Assembly (NCBI RefSeq): GCF_900099695.1
Contig: NZ_FNCY01000024.1
Span: forward strand, 1-63,922
Direction: 5' to 3'
DNA: 63,922 nt
Origin: Propionivibrio dicarboxylicus
Lineage (GTDB): Bacteria; Pseudomonadota; Gammaproteobacteria; Burkholderiales; Rhodocyclaceae
Shown: positions 57,330 through 63,922 of the stretch, piece after piece
Numbering within the stretch: position 1 is the first letter of the stretch
Layout: every line of letters starts with the position of its first letter
Program-made: the position numbers and the translations under genes
Notes under the pieces: model-generated
What the model was told of the DNA's origin: nothing
What the model saw: only the letters and a program-made list of their open reading frames with translations
Database searches by the model: none

Positions 57330-57382
57330 AGAGCCTATTTCGGTAGGGATCGTGGGCCGCGAGCTCTACCGAAATAGGCTCT
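57330..57382. repeat. 17-bp inverted repeat between guaC and rsmA
   Basis: AGAGCCTATTTCGGTAG (57330-57346) and its exact reverse complement (57366-57382) flank a 19-base loop. The right arm reaches the last base of the rsmA stop codon. There is no T tract on either strand, so it is not a typical intrinsic terminator. It could be a small palindromic repeat, a remnant of insertion-sequence ends, or a bidirectional transcript end. Confidence 0.7.
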
Positions 57383-58161
57383 TAAGCCAGGGCGTTGACG
57401 ATGCGGACGTAATCCTCGACGGCCAGTTCCTCGGCACGTGCCGTCGGGGCGATGCCAAGGCGCTCGAACAATTCGGGCGCAACGAGATCGCGCAGCGTGT
57501 TGCGCAGCATCTTGCGCCGCTGCGAGAAAGCCGCAGCCACCAGCGTCGTCAGCAGGGCCGGGTCCCGCGCCGTCAACTCGGCAGCCGGACGCGGAATCAG
57601 GCGAACGACCGCCGAATCGACCTTCGGTGCCGGATCGAAACACTCGGGGGGCACGTCGAACAGCCGATCGATATAAAACCGGTACTGCAGCATCACCGAC
57701 AGACGCCCGTAATCGGCCGTTCCGGGGAGCGCCGCCATGCGATCGACAACTTCCTTCTGCAGCATGAAGTGCATGTCGGCGACATGATCGGCAAAGCCGG
57801 CGAGATGAAAGAGCAGCGGTGTCGAGATGTTGTAGGGCAGATTGCCGACGACATGCAGCGGCGGCGCCCCTTCGCCGCACAGGCGGGCGAAATCGAAGGC
57901 GAGCGCATCGCCCTCGTGAATACTGAGTTTTTCGGCCGGAAAGCGCTGCTTCAACCGGGCGACGATGTCGCGGTCGATCTCGACGACGTCGAGGTGGTCG
58001 AGACGCTTGAGCAGCGGCCCGGTCAGCGCGCCAAGACCGGGGCCGATCTCGACGACGCGCGCATCGCGGCGCGGCGCGACGGCGTTGATGATGTCGGCGA
58101 TGACCTGATCGTCGATCAGGAAATTCTGGCCGAAACGCTTACGGGCAATATGCGCACTCAT
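57382..58161 (-). CDS. rsmA: 16S rRNA dimethyladenosine transferase
   Basis: A 259-residue KsgA/RsmA. It has [20 protein letters not shown], the SAM motif [35 protein letters not shown] (catalytic NLPY) and the C-terminal [13 protein letters not shown]. It dimethylates A1518 and A1519 of 16S rRNA. Its ATG overlaps the pdxA stop by 4 bases. The order lptD-surA-pdxA-rsmA is the classical one. Confidence 0.97.
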
Positions 58162-59159
58162 CGCGCCCGCTCCGCCATGTCGATGGCCTGCTCGACAGCG
58201 ACGAACAGGCTGCCGGGGTCGGCCGATCCTGTGCCGGCGAGTTCCAGCGCCGTGCCGTGATCGACCGAGGTGCGGATCACCGGCAAGCCGAGCGTGACAT
58301 TGATGCCCTGTCCGAAACTCGCGTATTTCAGGGCCGTCAGCCCCTGGTCGTGGTACATCGCCAGGACGCAGTCGCCCTTGGCCAGCAGCGGCGGGGTGAA
58401 CATCGTATCGGCCGGCAACGGGCCGGTCAGCATCATGCCTTCGCCACGCAGCCGTTCGAGGACCGGCGTGATAACCTCGATCTCCTCGCGTCCGAGATAG
58501 CCGCCTTCGCCGGCATGCGGATTCAGTCCGGCGACGAGAATGCGTGGTGCCGCAATGCCGAATTTCCGCTTCATGTCGGCCTGCAGGATGCGCAGGGTTT
58601 CTTCCAGCGATTCGGCGGTGATCGCCGCCGGCACGTCGCGCAACGCCAGATGCGTCGTCGCCAGGGCAACGCGCAAACCGCCGCCGGCCAGCATCATCAC
58701 GACGCGGCCGGTTCCCGTCTTCTCGGCCAGGTATTCGGTATGCCCGGTGAAAGCGATGCCGGCGTCGTTGATGACACCCTTGTGCACCGGCGCCGTCACC
58801 ATCGCCGCGAATTCACCGGCGCAGCAGCCGGCCAGGGCGCGATCGAGCAATTGCAGCACATAGCCGGCATTGCCGGGATCGAGCCGACCCGGCGTCGACG
58901 GCCGGGCGAGCGGCAGCGAGAGGACGTCGAGTACGCCATCCTCCGGCGCGCGATCGGGCTGCCACGGACGCAGTTGGCACGCGATCTTCGTCTCGTGCGC
59001 GCGTTGCGCCAGCAGGTCGATATCCCCGAGCACGACGGGCTGGGCACGCCCCCGCCAGGCGCCCTCCCCGGCCAGACGCAGGCAAAGCTCCGGACCGATG
59101 CCGGCAGGCTCTCCTGACGTCACCGCGATGCGCGGCAGCGCGCTCTTGCTAGGGCTCAT
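58158..59159 (-). CDS. pdxA: 4-hydroxythreonine-4-phosphate dehydrogenase (vitamin B6 pathway)
   Basis: From the ATG at 59159 it has 333 residues. It has [60 protein letters not shown] and [20 protein letters not shown] with metal-binding His residues. Its gene order with surA and rsmA marks it as the biosynthetic enzyme, in contrast to the PdxA2 copy in the sugar-acid locus. Its start overlaps the end of surA by 11 bases and its stop overlaps rsmA by 4, giving a tightly coupled operon. Confidence 0.95.
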
Positions 59160-60450
59160 CGAGCCGGCTCTCGACATAGGCGCGATCGCGCTCCTGGCGC
59201 AACCAGTCCTGATAGGCCTCGTCCTGCCGGCGCTCCTTGAGCAACTGGCGCACCGATGCGCGCTTGCGATCGCCGGAGGCTTCCTGAACGCGCCGTTCCT
59301 CGACACGAATCAGGTGATAACCGAAGGGCGAACGGACCGGGCTGCTGAGTTCCCCGGGTTTCAGGCCGTCCATCGCGCGCTCGAATTCCGGCACGGTGTC
59401 GCCCTGATACAACCAACCGAGATCGCCGCCCTTGGACGCTGAGGCGTCCTGGGAGAAGAGCCGTGCCAGTTCCTCGAACTTGGCGCCGTTCTTGAGCCGC
59501 TCGTGCAAGTCCTCGATCTTGTGTCGCGCCTCGGTATCCGAGACCAGCTCATTGACCTTGATGAGGATATGGCGCGCCCGCGTCTGCTTCACGGGCGCCA
59601 TCGCCGACAGACCGCGTTTGGCGACAAGCTTGACGATATGGAAGCCATTCGAACTACGAATCAGCGGCGCCACCTCGCCGACCTTGAGTTTCTCCGCGAC
59701 ATCGGAAAACACGCTCGGCAAGCGGTCAAGCGGACGCATGCCGAGACTGCCGCCCTGCAAACCGTCGGGGGCATCCGAATAGGAAGCCGCCATTTCCGCG
59801 AAATCCTCGCCGTTTTTCAGGCGGTCGTAGATCTGGTCGGCTTTGGCGCGCAAGCGCTGGATTTGTTCCGGACTCGCCGCTTCCGGCGCCCGCAACAGGA
59901 TGTGCGCGATCTCGTATTCCTCGCCGGACGACCCGACAGCCGATTCGCCGCTCAGATAATTGTCGATTTCGCCTTCGGAAACGACGATTTTTGCGTCGAC
60001 CTCACGTTCGCGCAGTCGCGCAATCGTCATCTCGGCGCGAATATCCTCACGGAATTTCGTGAAGGCGATGCCATCCTGCTGCAAGGCATCGCGGAACTGC
60101 GCCAGCGACATCTTGTTACCGGCGGCAATCCGTTGCAGCGTCTGCTCGAGCTGTCCGTCATCGACGCGCAAGCCGATTTCCTTGGCCCGCTGCAACTGGA
60201 TCTTGTCCGTCACCAGGCGCTCGAGCATCTGTCGTTCCAGCACATCGCGCGGCGGCAAACGCGTTCCCTGCCGACGCAGTTGGCTGAGCGCCAGTTCGAG
60301 GCGATCGTTCAGTTCGACATAGGTCACCACTTCATCATTGACGACGGCGACGATCCTGTCCGCGGCCTGCACGCCGCGCCCCGCCCCCTGGGCCCACGCC
60401 GTTCCGCTCAGCAGACAACACAGACATAGCCACGGAAATAGACGCTTCAT
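59149..60450 (-). CDS. surA: Periplasmic chaperone / peptidyl-prolyl isomerase SurA
   Basis: The 433-residue protein has a signal peptide ([20 protein letters not shown]). The N-terminal chaperone domain ([20 protein letters not shown]) is followed by two parvulin domains ([20 protein letters not shown] ... and [20 protein letters not shown] ...). It escorts outer-membrane barrels such as LptD to the BAM machine. It lies 10 bases after the PagP-LptD gene, so chaperone and client are cotranslated from one transcript. A GAGG site precedes the start. Confidence 0.96.
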
Positions 60451-60460
60451 GCGTTCACCC

Positions 60461-63400
60461 TCATTGCAAGTAATCGGACCCGGTACTGGGTTCGTTGATC
60501 AGGCTGTAGCCCTGGATACTCCGCCGCAAGATACCGACCGGATTGAAGCCGACACTGGCGAAATCGTTGAGTTCGAGCTGGATAAAGAAAGCCGACGAGG
60601 CCGTCGACGAGGTCAGCGCCGTCCGCTGGATGACGCCGCGCACCACCCAGCAACCGCCGTTGTACTCGACGCCCGCCACGGCCTGCACGACGCGGCCGGT
60701 CTGGCTCGTCGTCGACAAGGTGGTTCCGGTATCCTTGAACGAATAATTGAAACGCCCGAGGCCATAGAGCCGGCCGGCGAGCGGCCACTGCCCGGAAAAG
60801 TCGACCTGGTTGGTCGGCGCACTCTGATCGGCGTTGTAGCGATAGGCGGCATTCAGTACCTTGCCCGGTTCCGGCAGGTAACGCATGCCGAGCGACTGCC
60901 GCTTGAAGCGCTGGTCGGCGAAGTTGTACTGCATTCCAAGGTCGGCATATACCTTCGGCAGCACCTGGCCGCTAAAGGCCGACAGGAAGTCGGACTTATC
61001 CCAGGAACGGTCGTTTGCGCTGGCAAGCGTATTGGAACTCAACGCCACCTGGTTACGCGAGAAATAGAAGCGTTCGCCAACCATCACCCGGACGATCTCG
61101 GCGCCAGTCTTCGGGTCAAGCAGGCGGCTCGTCGCCGCCGCCGTCAACTGATTGGCGTTGTTGATGCGATCCCAACCCGAGAACTGATTCTCCGAGAAGA
61201 TCTGGGCGAAGTTGAAGTCGGCCAGCGCCGCATCGAAAACCGGGATGTTGTCCTGGTTCCGGTACGGAATGTTGACGTAATAGAGGCGCGGCTCCAGGGT
61301 CTGCGTATAGTCACGGCCGAACCACTGGCTCGAGCGCTCGAAGGTCATGCCGGAATCGAAGCTCATGATCGGCACGCTCGTGCTGACCGACGCCGGCACC
61401 CCGGTCGCCTGCCGCGTCAAGGCGTACTGCCGCATGTTCAGGCCGATCTTCGGCGTCACGTACCAGCCGGGCGTGACATAAGGCATGGCGAGTTGCGGAT
61501 AGAGCACGAGCCGCTGCCCTTCGGGGTCCGAGATCTTGGTACCGTTGATGATCTGCACCGGCTTGGTAAAGGCCGTGTATTGCCCCATGAAAATACCGTC
61601 AGCATTCCATAGATCCGGCCGGCGGGCATTGACCGTGATCTGCGGCAACATGCGGTACTGTTCGGCGACCGGGTTGGCGGCATCGGGCTGCAGCGTCTGG
61701 TAGGTCTGGAAGTTCGCCGTGGCATTCCACCAGCCGCCACCGCTGTAGCCGACCATTCCCTGTTGCAGCAACTGGGTTTGCGAGGTCGCGGTGATGTTGC
61801 TCGACAGGTCGGTGAAATACGTGTCGTCCGAAACCTTGTTGTAGTTGACCAACCCGGTAAAGCCGTTGCCCGTGCTCTGCCGGTGTTGCAGCGAAATGCC
61901 GTAACGCGAATCGCCGCTCTTGGCTTTGTCGCCGGGCAAGGTTTCAACACGCGCTTCGCCCGAATAAATACCGCCATAGGAGGTATTCAGGTAACGGAAA
62001 TCGGTATTGAGCTGAACGCCGCGCTTGGCCATTTCCCGCGTCGTGATCGTCGCGTCCATGTTCGGCGCGATATCCCAGTAATACGGCACGCTGAGCGACA
62101 TGCCGCTGTTGGTCGTCGTGCCGAAGGTCGGCGCCAGCAGTCCGGACTTGCGTTGGCGGTTCAGCGAGAACGGCAGCCACGGCGAATGCAGGATCGGCAC
62201 ATCCTTGAAATACACCGTCGCATCCTTGCCGTCGCCACGTTCCTGGTCGTAGTCGAGCTTCAGTTCGCTGGTCTTGACGTACCAATCGTCATTGCCGGGT
62301 TTGCAGGTGGTGAAGGAACTGTTGACCAAGCGGTAGTGGTTCTCGCTCTCGAAATCGATCCAATCGGCTTCGCCGCGCCCATCCGATTGCGCCCGCCCGC
62401 GATTCGGCTGGTTGTAGAAATTCTGCACGAAAGCACGCGGCACATCGAAACCGGAATTCCAGTAATCGCCGCGGCTCTGCTGTTCCAGCGACGCTTCGAC
62501 CGCGGCATTGGCTTCGGCCGCCTTGCTACCGGTCGCCGGCTTGCGCCGGATCAGGAAGCTGGGTTGTTCGAAGAAGCCCACCTGGTCTTCAAGCCGCAAG
62601 CGCATCTTCGGGCCGCTGACGACATCATTCTCCTGTTCGAGACGGACATTGCCCTCGGCCTCGACCTCATCCTCGACCGGCCAATAAGTCAGGCGATCGC
62701 CGGTCAGCACCGTGCCGACCTTCCGCAACTGCGCGGCCCCCTCGGCGTTGAACTCGCGCTCGACATCGCCGCCCATCCGGTGGGCGCTCAAGAAGACGGG
62801 GCGAGGCTCGTCACTCTTGCGCTTCTGCGGCGCCATCTGGCGGGACGACTTCAGCGCCATCGCCGGCATCGCATCCGGCGCACTCTCGGCAACCGCCTGC
62901 TGGGCCACACCTGCAGACCCTGCATCGCCAACCGCGGCACCGCCCCTCGTGCTTGCGACATCCGCCGAGGACGCCGCCGGGCGGCCTGCCGCGGGCGCTG
63001 CCCCCGCGAGCGAACCGTAGGACGAGGTCAGACCGGGAATATCGAGCGCAGGACCGTAGGGGACACGCCGTGCCTGACGCGGCGCCGTGACATCGACCGG
63101 TGCCTTCGCCAGCGCGGTTTCCTCGATAGGGGCCGGCCGGGCCGGCGTACCGATCCGCTCGCCGTCCTTACCCATTTCCCATTTCGCCCAGAAAAAGGCG
63201 ACGTTGCCCCACCCGGCGCCGCCGGGGATAAAGGCTCCGTTCAAGCTGAAATTCTTGTAGGCAATCGACCCCGCCGGCACAACCAGCGGGAACGGTTTGT
63301 AATTGATGATATCGGTCCGCGACATCAGGCCGCCGACATAGCCGAGGCCCAGGCGCCAATCATCGGCCGGTCGCCAGATCGACTGCCAGCCATATCCGGC

Positions 63401-63922
63401 CATGTACATCGGCTTGAAATGGGAGTCCTGGAAGGCCATCGCATAAACGCCTTCCAGATCGCCTTTTTCATTGTAAAAACTGCGGCCAAGGCCAAAGCCC
63501 TTGGGTTTTTCCTGATAGGTCGCAATTTTTTCCTGCGAATAGGCGCTGCGCAGATGATAGGTTTCGAACGGCAGATAGAGTTCCAGACTGCCCTGCTGAT
63601 AGGCGTTCGCTACCGGCGCCCACCAGCGTTGATACCAGGGACGCTCATCACGCGCCTGCGGCTTCATCGCCAACGACACGGGTTTCTGCCGCGTCGTCGC
63701 CAACGACTCGGCGTCTGGCATCGGCACAGACTCGCTCAAGCCGATCAACGCCGGATCGACCCGCAAGGGCGCCAGCGCCGAGCCAACCGGCGCAACACCG
63801 GACGTTGCCGTTGGACGTGCGGCAAATACCGGGGACGGCGCGGTCACCGTGCTCACGCGCTTCTGCGGCGACACAGCCGTCGCCTGAGTCGCCTGAGTCG
63901 CCTGAGTCGCCTGAGTCGCCTG
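60461..63922 (-). CDS. lptD: PagP-LptD fusion: lipid A palmitoyltransferase joined to the LPS-assembly barrel (5' end outside window)
   Basis: One frame covers at least 1153 codons and enters the window already open. Counting from the GTG at 63874, residues 80-234 match PagP: LYLPFETYHLRSAYSQEK, GFGLGRS, GVYAMAFQDS, YMAGYGWQSIWRP and PGGAGWGNVAFFWAKWEM. Catalytic His107, Asp150 and Ser151 correspond to E. coli His33, Asp76 and Ser77. A 120-residue Ala/Pro linker leads to an OstA jellyroll (about 358-442, AEGNVRLEQENDVVSGPKM) and the LptD barrel (505-1137, YFKDVPILHSPWLPFSLN). Only two Cys are visible, C524 (TTCKPG) and C1075 (NGGCWVVRG), allowing one interdomain disulfide. surA, pdxA and rsmA follow. 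The signal peptide lies beyond the edge. Confidence 0.88.
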   Translation of the reverse strand, partial: QATQATQATQATQATAVSPQKRVSTVTAPSPVFAARPTATSGVAPVGSALAPLRVDPALIGLSESVPMPDAESLATTRQKPVSLAMKPQARDERPWYQRWWAPVANAYQQGSLELYLPFETYHLRSAYSQEKIATYQEKPKGFGLGRSFYNEKGDLEGVYAMAFQDSHFKPMYMAGYGWQSIWRPADDWRLGLGYVGGLMSRTDIINYKPFPLVVPAGSIAYKNFSLNGAFIPGGAGWGNVAFFWAKWEMGKDGERIGTPARPAPIEETALAKAPVDVTAPRQARRVPYGPALDIPGLTSSYGSLAGAAPAAGRPAASSADVASTRGGAAVGDAGSAGVAQQAVAESAPDAMPAMALKSSRQMAPQKRKSDEPRPVFLSAHRMGGDVEREFNAEGAAQLRKVGTVLTGDRLTYWPVEDEVEAEGNVRLEQENDVVSGPKMRLRLEDQVGFFEQPSFLIRRKPATGSKAAEANAAVEASLEQQSRGDYWNSGFDVPRAFVQNFYNQPNRGRAQSDGRGEADWIDFESENHYRLVNSSFTTCKPGNDDWYVKTSELKLDYDQERGDGKDATVYFKDVPILHSPWLPFSLNRQRKSGLLAPTFGTTTNSGMSLSVPYYWDIAPNMDATITTREMAKRGVQLNTDFRYLNTSYGGIYSGEARVETLPGDKAKSGDSRYGISLQHRQSTGNGFTGLVNYNKVSDDTYFTDLSSNITATSQTQLLQQGMVGYSGGGWWNATANFQTYQTLQPDAANPVAEQYRMLPQITVNARRPDLWNADGIFMGQYTAFTKPVQIINGTKISDPEGQRLVLYPQLAMPYVTPGWYVTPKIGLNMRQYALTRQATGVPASVSTSVPIMSFDSGMTFERSSQWFGRDYTQTLEPRLYYVNIPYRNQDNIPVFDAALADFNFAQIFSENQFSGWDRINNANQLTAAATSRLLDPKTGAEIVRVMVGERFYFSRNQVALSSNTLASANDRSWDKSDFLSAFSGQVLPKVYADLGMQYNFADQRFKRQSLGMRYLPEPGKVLNAAYRYNADQSAPTNQVDFSGQWPLAGRLYGLGRFNYSFKDTGTTLSTTSQTGRVVQAVAGVEYNGGCWVVRGVIQRTALTSSTASSAFFIQLELNDFASVGFNPVGILRRSIQGYSLINEPSTGSDYLQ
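63881..63922 (-). repeat. In-frame 9-bp tandem repeat encoding Gln-Ala-Thr units
   Basis: The 9-base unit CGCCTGAGT (plus strand) is repeated almost five times up to the window edge. In the frame of the PagP-LptD gene it encodes (Gln-Ala-Thr)n. As a multiple of three it can vary in number without breaking the frame. The full array length is not visible. Confidence 0.9.

Follow-up and report, generated by a model that had tools for sequence, protein, structure and literature searches.

Can the outer-membrane gate through which lipopolysaccharide (LPS) is installed carry, in the same chain, an enzyme that acts on the lipid being exported? The question is raised by a gene at the end of a 63,922-base stretch of DNA from Propionivibrio dicarboxylicus (the window, meaning the whole stretch that was analysed), in which the palmitoyltransferase PagP precedes the LPS exporter LptD. 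PagP normally resides in the outer membrane, where it awaits phospholipid that reaches the outer leaflet and moves palmitate onto lipid A. An initial annotation, made from the letters alone, proposed that the two proteins form one polypeptide. We found the two domains in one uninterrupted frame in the window and in 11 further genomes, and consider it probable that the product is one exported two-barrel protein, with a working PagP palmitoyltransferase tethered to the LptD gate.

PagP and LptD occupy one reading frame

The minus-strand frame 60461..63922 is open up to the contig end and encodes 1153 amino acids (aa), within which a GTG-initiated open reading frame spans 60461..63874 (1137 aa). 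Both domains match their Pfam families above cut-off, PagP (PF07017) with 162.4 bits against a cut-off of 24 at residues 104-247 of the 1153-aa frame, and LptD (PF04453) with 316.9 bits against 22.4 at residues 672-1050. The PagP part also passes the NCBIfam model NF008271 (167.6, cut-off 155), and two NCBIfam LptD equivalog models match the fusion below their own cut-offs (336.4 of 683 and 295.7 of 944).

The same architecture, which the initial annotation had proposed to look for in relatives and whose absence from them it had named as contrary evidence, recurs within the family. A PagP match was found in 51 of 395 sampled family genomes; in 12 of these, counting that of the window, PagP and LptD share one open frame of 1075-1455 aa. 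In four named relatives, too, both domains lie far above the Pfam cut-offs in one frame. None of the 12 genomes has a PagP match or an LptD match other than the fused gene, and a single LptD match per genome argues for a function in LPS export, which the fusion must presumably perform because it is the sole LptD found in these genomes. The features of the locus are as follows.

60461..63922, minus strand: pagP-lptD fusion gene, 5' end lost at the contig end (open frame, Pfam matches, start on contig C11)
63878..63922, minus strand: 9-bp tandem repeat (CAGGCGAC+T/G; reads QAT), the contig break point
63740..63766, minus strand: LRVDPALIG motif preceding PagP, a second copy; in relatives the motif is also present past the signal peptide
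63173..63658, minus strand: PagP domain including its N-terminal helix
63554..63556, minus strand: catalytic His codon of PagP (presumably H33 of E. coli)
63422..63427, minus strand: catalytic Asp-Ser codons of PagP (presumably D76 and S77 of E. coli)
63143..63172, minus strand: junction motif GKDGERIGTP, immediately past the last PagP strand
62828..63172, minus strand: Ala/Pro-rich linker, predicted to be disordered, without a clear signal-peptide-like stretch
62243..62827, minus strand: LptD periplasmic jellyroll (ends approximate)
60464..62242, minus strand: LptD barrel (start approximate; Pfam and structure match)
62303..62305, minus strand: first of two conserved LptD Cys codons
60650..60652, minus strand: second of two conserved LptD Cys codons
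59149..60450, minus strand: surA
58158..59165, minus strand: pdxA (start approximate)
57382..58161, minus strand: rsmA/ksgA

The gene sits, as originally described, in the lptD position: profile matches place surA, pdxA and rsmA downstream of it, PdxA and RsmA exceeding their model cut-offs and SurA scoring 302.6 bits, below its cut-off of 394. Two Cys residues, both in the LptD part, are invariant in a 58-row alignment; E. coli LptD has four for the disulfide between jellyroll and barrel. The nearest solved LptD chain by sequence is 7omm, from N. gonorrhoeae.

The start of the gene lies on a second contig

The window is the entire contig C13 (63922 bases) of its genome, with the contig end at 63922, and the contig breaks inside CAGGCGACT repeats that are translated as QAT. 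The N-terminal part of the nearest relative, G495, matches bases 3-377 of contig C11 of the same genome with 90% identity. Contig C11 starts in a similar repeat, CAGGCAACC, and encodes a signal peptide, MTFLPRRKPLARIFLLGFAGMMVGGNVIDARAQ, with amgK and murU upstream (MurU above cut-off; best AmgK model 416.6 of 550). Thus, the upstream search for a signal peptide that the initial annotation had proposed leads to a separate contig, on which the missing start and signal peptide of the fusion gene evidently sit. The residue numbering that had been counted from a GTG at 63874 is correct, but this GTG is unlikely to be the true start, given that the contig ends in a repeat and the signal peptide is on C11.

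Assessed by eye and by hydropathy, signal peptide, PagP and LptD share one frame in 10 of the 12 fused genes, the exceptions being the window, whose N-terminal piece is on C11, and the gene of genome G710, where the signal peptide is in another frame. Tandem repeats reading QAT or AQ were seen in the LptD N-terminal segment at 63878-63922 of the window, where they break the assembly, at the start of L205 and in L069; G710 carries AQ repeats, and its signal peptide is out of frame with PagP.

The catalytic residues of the PagP part are conserved

The family sample contained 52 PagP places, of which the 30 with loci were used (12 fused, 18 standalone), and wider sampling gave 61, again with 30 that had loci and were used. 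One locus with a stop inside PagP (L010) gave no row, and 45 standalone PagPs were left for the tree, residue and motif comparisons; the tests for purH, purD and the junction motif cover only PagP places with loci.

The catalytic residues named in the initial annotation, His107, Asp150 and Ser151 counted from the GTG, are correctly placed and align with a His, an Asp and a Ser in the E. coli PagP structure 3gp6, which we take to be H33, D76 and S77. All three are kept in 12/12 fused PagPs, much as in the standalone proteins (His and Ser in 45 of 45, Asp in 44). Ratios of nonsynonymous to synonymous substitution (dN/dS) between the window and L067 were 0.030 for PagP, 0.052 for the jellyroll and 0.070 for the barrel, as against 0.40 for the linker and 0.23 for the segment ahead of PagP; seven other pairs gave 0.10-0.27 for PagP and 0.11-0.21 for the barrel. 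By this measure the fused PagP is evidently under purifying selection, like the LptD barrel. Directly past the last PagP strand, all 12 fused proteins carry the junction motif GKxGxxxGTP, found in 0 of the 45 standalone PagPs.

The position equivalent to Gly88, which in E. coli PagP sets or limits acyl length, is occupied by Gly in eight fused PagPs, Ser in two, Thr in one and Ala in one. The length of the transferred acyl chain may therefore vary between species, and palmitate itself is not assured because Gly is kept in only this part of the set. The PagP of the fusion most likely acylates lipid A.

Two folds and a disordered linker in one predicted chain

For the part of the window chain that begins at residue 80 (1074 aa), a structure predicted from 58 sequences had a predicted local distance difference test score (pLDDT) of 71.5 and a predicted template modelling score (pTM) of 0.58. 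The prediction recovers both folds, running from a helix at 17-31 through the PagP strands and a disordered linker at 182-285 (pLDDT below 50) to the jellyroll and barrel. In Foldseek searches with the full-chain model, LptD structures rank first and PagP 3gp6 is matched separately, with a template modelling (TM) score by target of 0.76; the jellyroll and large barrel match LptDE structures with E values down to 1.8e-52. PagP modelled by itself from 8 sequences (pLDDT 66) reaches TM scores by target of 0.79 to 3gp6 and 0.80 to 1thq, and again shows the helix at 17-31 followed by strands, an N-terminal helix and barrel fold predicted with middling confidence and a strand count that is not exact.

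In the known topologies both PagP termini and the start of LptD are periplasmic, and the signal peptide, the linker and the two barrels would be compatible with a single exported chain. The claim that the barrels can be joined without a topology conflict is supported by the predicted disordered linker between the PagP barrel and the LptD jellyroll. The placement of the two barrels relative to each other cannot be read from the model, because of its low pTM and the disordered linker.

Linker length is 88-167 aa in 11 of the 12 fused proteins and 47 aa in one. A second signal-peptide-like stretch was sought by hydropathy, and no clear one was found in any of the 12 linkers: their peak 11-residue Kyte-Doolittle means are 0.85-1.83, compared with 1.91-2.76 in the N-terminal part of 11 of the proteins. 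The margin is narrow for the L059 linker, at 1.83. The signal peptide does not account for the N-terminal maximum of L059 or L069, and the window chain, which lacks its signal peptide, reaches 1.55 in its N-terminal part. Separate initiation of LptD within the frame, which we considered, is not favoured since such a hydrophobic stretch is not clearly present in any of the linkers.

The fusion occurs in a few genera of the sampled family

The carriers of the fusion belong to Propionivibrio, Rhodocyclus and a groundwater lineage, and span at least three genus groups. All three sampled Rhodocyclus genomes are fused, including R. tenuis 2761 (G499) and R. gracilis DSM 110 (G451). In a sample of the order, PagP was present in 58 of 399 genomes, and in a sample of the class in 15 of 369; only the window has a fusion-sized PagP frame in both. 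Eight of 80 loci with organism names are fused, namely two Propionivibrio bins, Candidatus Propionivibrio aalborgensis, an Accumulibacter-labelled bin, an uncultured Rhodocyclaceae, a groundwater betaproteobacterium, R. gracilis and R. tenuis.

In the window's own genus an LptD match was found in 26 of 28 genomes. Eight of these are fused, two have PagP that is cut by a contig end (Candidatus Propionivibrio aalborgensis, G781, and G788), 14 have a complete LptD without PagP, and in two (G768 and G782) LptD is cut at contig ends such that fusion status is not readable. Among the PagP-less proteins, three from genus members with small genomes of 2.2-2.7 Mb (L189, L190 and L193) form a divergent nested branch.

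A probable tethered enzyme and its alternatives

How might such a protein work? In the reading that we consider probable, one polypeptide with a single signal peptide would be exported and would fold into two outer-membrane barrels, the PagP barrel leading through a flexible periplasmic linker to the LptD jellyroll and barrel. The PagP part would acylate lipid A in the outer leaflet beside the LptD gate, consuming stray phospholipid there. Because the enzyme would be expressed from lptD, the capacity for palmitoylation would no longer be regulated by stress but would be constitutive and matched one to one to the export gate. A stronger version, in which the export of LPS is coupled mechanically to the acylation of lipid A, so that a gate-side PagP palmitoylates LPS as it exits and consumes the phospholipid displaced, each export site thus having its own asymmetry-repair enzyme, is possible but doubtful.

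Several observations weigh against a working, tethered PagP. Confidence in the PagP model is middling (pLDDT 66), four of the eight pairs have a slightly higher dN/dS in PagP than in the barrel, and Gly stands at the Gly88 position in only 8 of 12. All 12 linkers contain 1-4 Met codons, at which internal initiation might occur, and in one of the 12 (G710) the signal peptide is in a different frame from PagP, through either an assembly fault or a real break. Moreover, the fusion is dispensable in evolution, since 14 of the 28 genomes of the genus encode a complete LptD that lacks PagP. Finally, an uncut chain is something we infer, and the chain could be cleaved after export.

This last point leads to the alternative that survives best, though we regard it as unlikely: the chain is made as one but severed within the linker once exported, so that PagP and LptD act apart and the fusion couples only their production. 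Disordered segments are easy protease targets, and the linker is long, fast-evolving and, in the window, predicted to be disordered; the junction motif, however, is conserved in 12/12, and at least three genus groups have kept the fusion. The estimated mature mass of the full-length fusion is about 140-147 kDa in R. tenuis and R. gracilis, with about 140 kDa for R. tenuis. Less probable still, with only a slim chance in our estimation, is a catalytically idle PagP that serves LptD as a structural anchor or clamp. Related LptDs do manage without PagP, and no PagP match was found in 12 of the 20 genus genomes searched, but an idle domain fits poorly with three catalytic residues kept in 12/12 and with similar dN/dS values for PagP and the LptD barrel. 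An assembly or annotation artefact merging two adjacent genes can be dismissed. In its favour, a repeat truncates the window gene, and of the 8 named carriers 6 are metagenome bins or uncultured isolates. That repeat, however, precedes PagP and does not separate the two domains, and independent genomes, 12 in all and two of them named strains, show the same order with no stop between the domains, the kind of interruption that the initial annotation had named as contrary evidence.

Origin of the fused gene

Where did the PagP of the fused gene come from? A long N-terminal segment rich in Ala and Pro is already present in the unfused LptDs of the genus and in those of Accumulibacter-like relatives. 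An LRVDPALLG-type motif occurs twice in 16 of the 28 unfused LptDs examined, past the signal peptide and before the jellyroll, and in the fused proteins PagP is placed past the second copy. As LRVDPALLGLPP, the motif was seen past the signal peptide in LptDs of Propionivibrio and relatives (L181-L195, L112, L119, L120, L123, L146, L153), often with another copy further along, and in the window at 63740-63766; it is perhaps a binding site for an Lpt partner.

Standalone pagP adjoins purH and/or purD in 14 of the 18 loci examined (18 of 40 non-fused places), purH-pagP-purD being its usual home in the family (for example L016, L032, L035 and L228). In 9 of the 18 genomes pagP and the LptD barrel match share a contig at a distance of 8.8-11.8 kb; in 2 they share one but lie far apart, and in 7 they are on different contigs. 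No pagP was found at the purH/purD site in any of the 12 fused genomes; ten have purH and purD 15-110 bp apart, and in the other two, G421 and G533, the gap of about 1.9 kb contains no pagP. In 9 of these 12 purD is 7-11 kb from the fused gene (measured, for the window's genome, to the N-terminal piece on C11); in G699 the distance is 25 kb, and in G559 and G421 the two are on different contigs. This arrangement suggests, as the simplest account, a short-range move of pagP, over some 10 kb, into the disordered segment of lptD.

A single clean clade of fused LptDs was rejected, as the LptD tree (50 rows, 13 fused, quick method) needs at least 5 changes of the fusion label, of which starred branches force 3, and unfused Propionivibrio are nested among the fused. 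In the PagP tree the 12 fused PagPs group together in 75% of 200 bootstrap trees, with weak branch support (74/40). Because the PagP tree unites them and the junction motif is common to all, we read the history as one gain followed by several losses, with several gains or transfer of the fused gene as alternatives. A possible PagP relic in the unfused LptD L182, a QRRPYG segment seen in the alignment, is too short to count.

Comparison with known proteins

In literature searches on PagP, LptD and multibarrels, no paper on a PagP-LptD fusion was found by title or abstract start, in line with the initial annotation, which knew of no described example. Solan et al. (2021, PNAS) reportedly treated multibarrel outer-membrane proteins with many barrel fusions, however, and the PagP-LptD pair may already figure there, which is the main threat to novelty.

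Like PagP (PF07017; 3gp6, 1thq), the fusion contains a complete domain of N-terminal helix and barrel that bears the catalytic His, Asp and Ser. It differs in lying in the lptD operon and in its end: 18 standalone PagPs of the family terminate 2-12 residues past the matched domain, whereas in the fusion that end is internal and is followed by the junction and LptD. With LptD (PF04453) it shares the jellyroll, the barrel, the neighbours surA, pdxA and rsmA and the status of sole LptD, but its signal peptide and jellyroll are separated by a second membrane barrel that has an enzyme fold. Like multi-barrel outer-membrane proteins such as GfcD (PMC11494523), it has two membrane barrels in one chain with a periplasmic connection; unlike them, it pairs the barrel of the essential LPS exporter with that of an enzyme for the lipid being exported.

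Three frames from another family of the order, L199 (539 aa), L201 (394 aa) and L202 (392 aa) of genomes G019, G335 and G362, continue past PagP into a further barrel-like region. A scan covering L201 and L202 found OMP_b-brl above the Pfam cut-off in both, and these frames are to all appearances a second, different PagP multibarrel.

Implications for outer-membrane assembly

In this small group of freshwater and sludge bacteria, export and modification of LPS appear to be physically tied, a lipid A-modifying enzyme being joined to the essential machine that installs the lipid, and this in organisms that can be grown, such as the phototrophic Rhodocyclus tenuis. For Rhodocyclus, LPS sugars and C16-rich fatty acids are reported in the passages of PMC8954225 that were consulted, which give no lipid A acyl chains. 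The fusion makes testable whether late modification of lipid A takes place where LPS is exported, how a single chain is folded by BAM and SurA into two different barrels, and whether PagP locally guards the asymmetry of the outer membrane. It also appears to record the move of a gene over some 10 kb into an essential one, at a disordered segment, with more than one loss afterwards.

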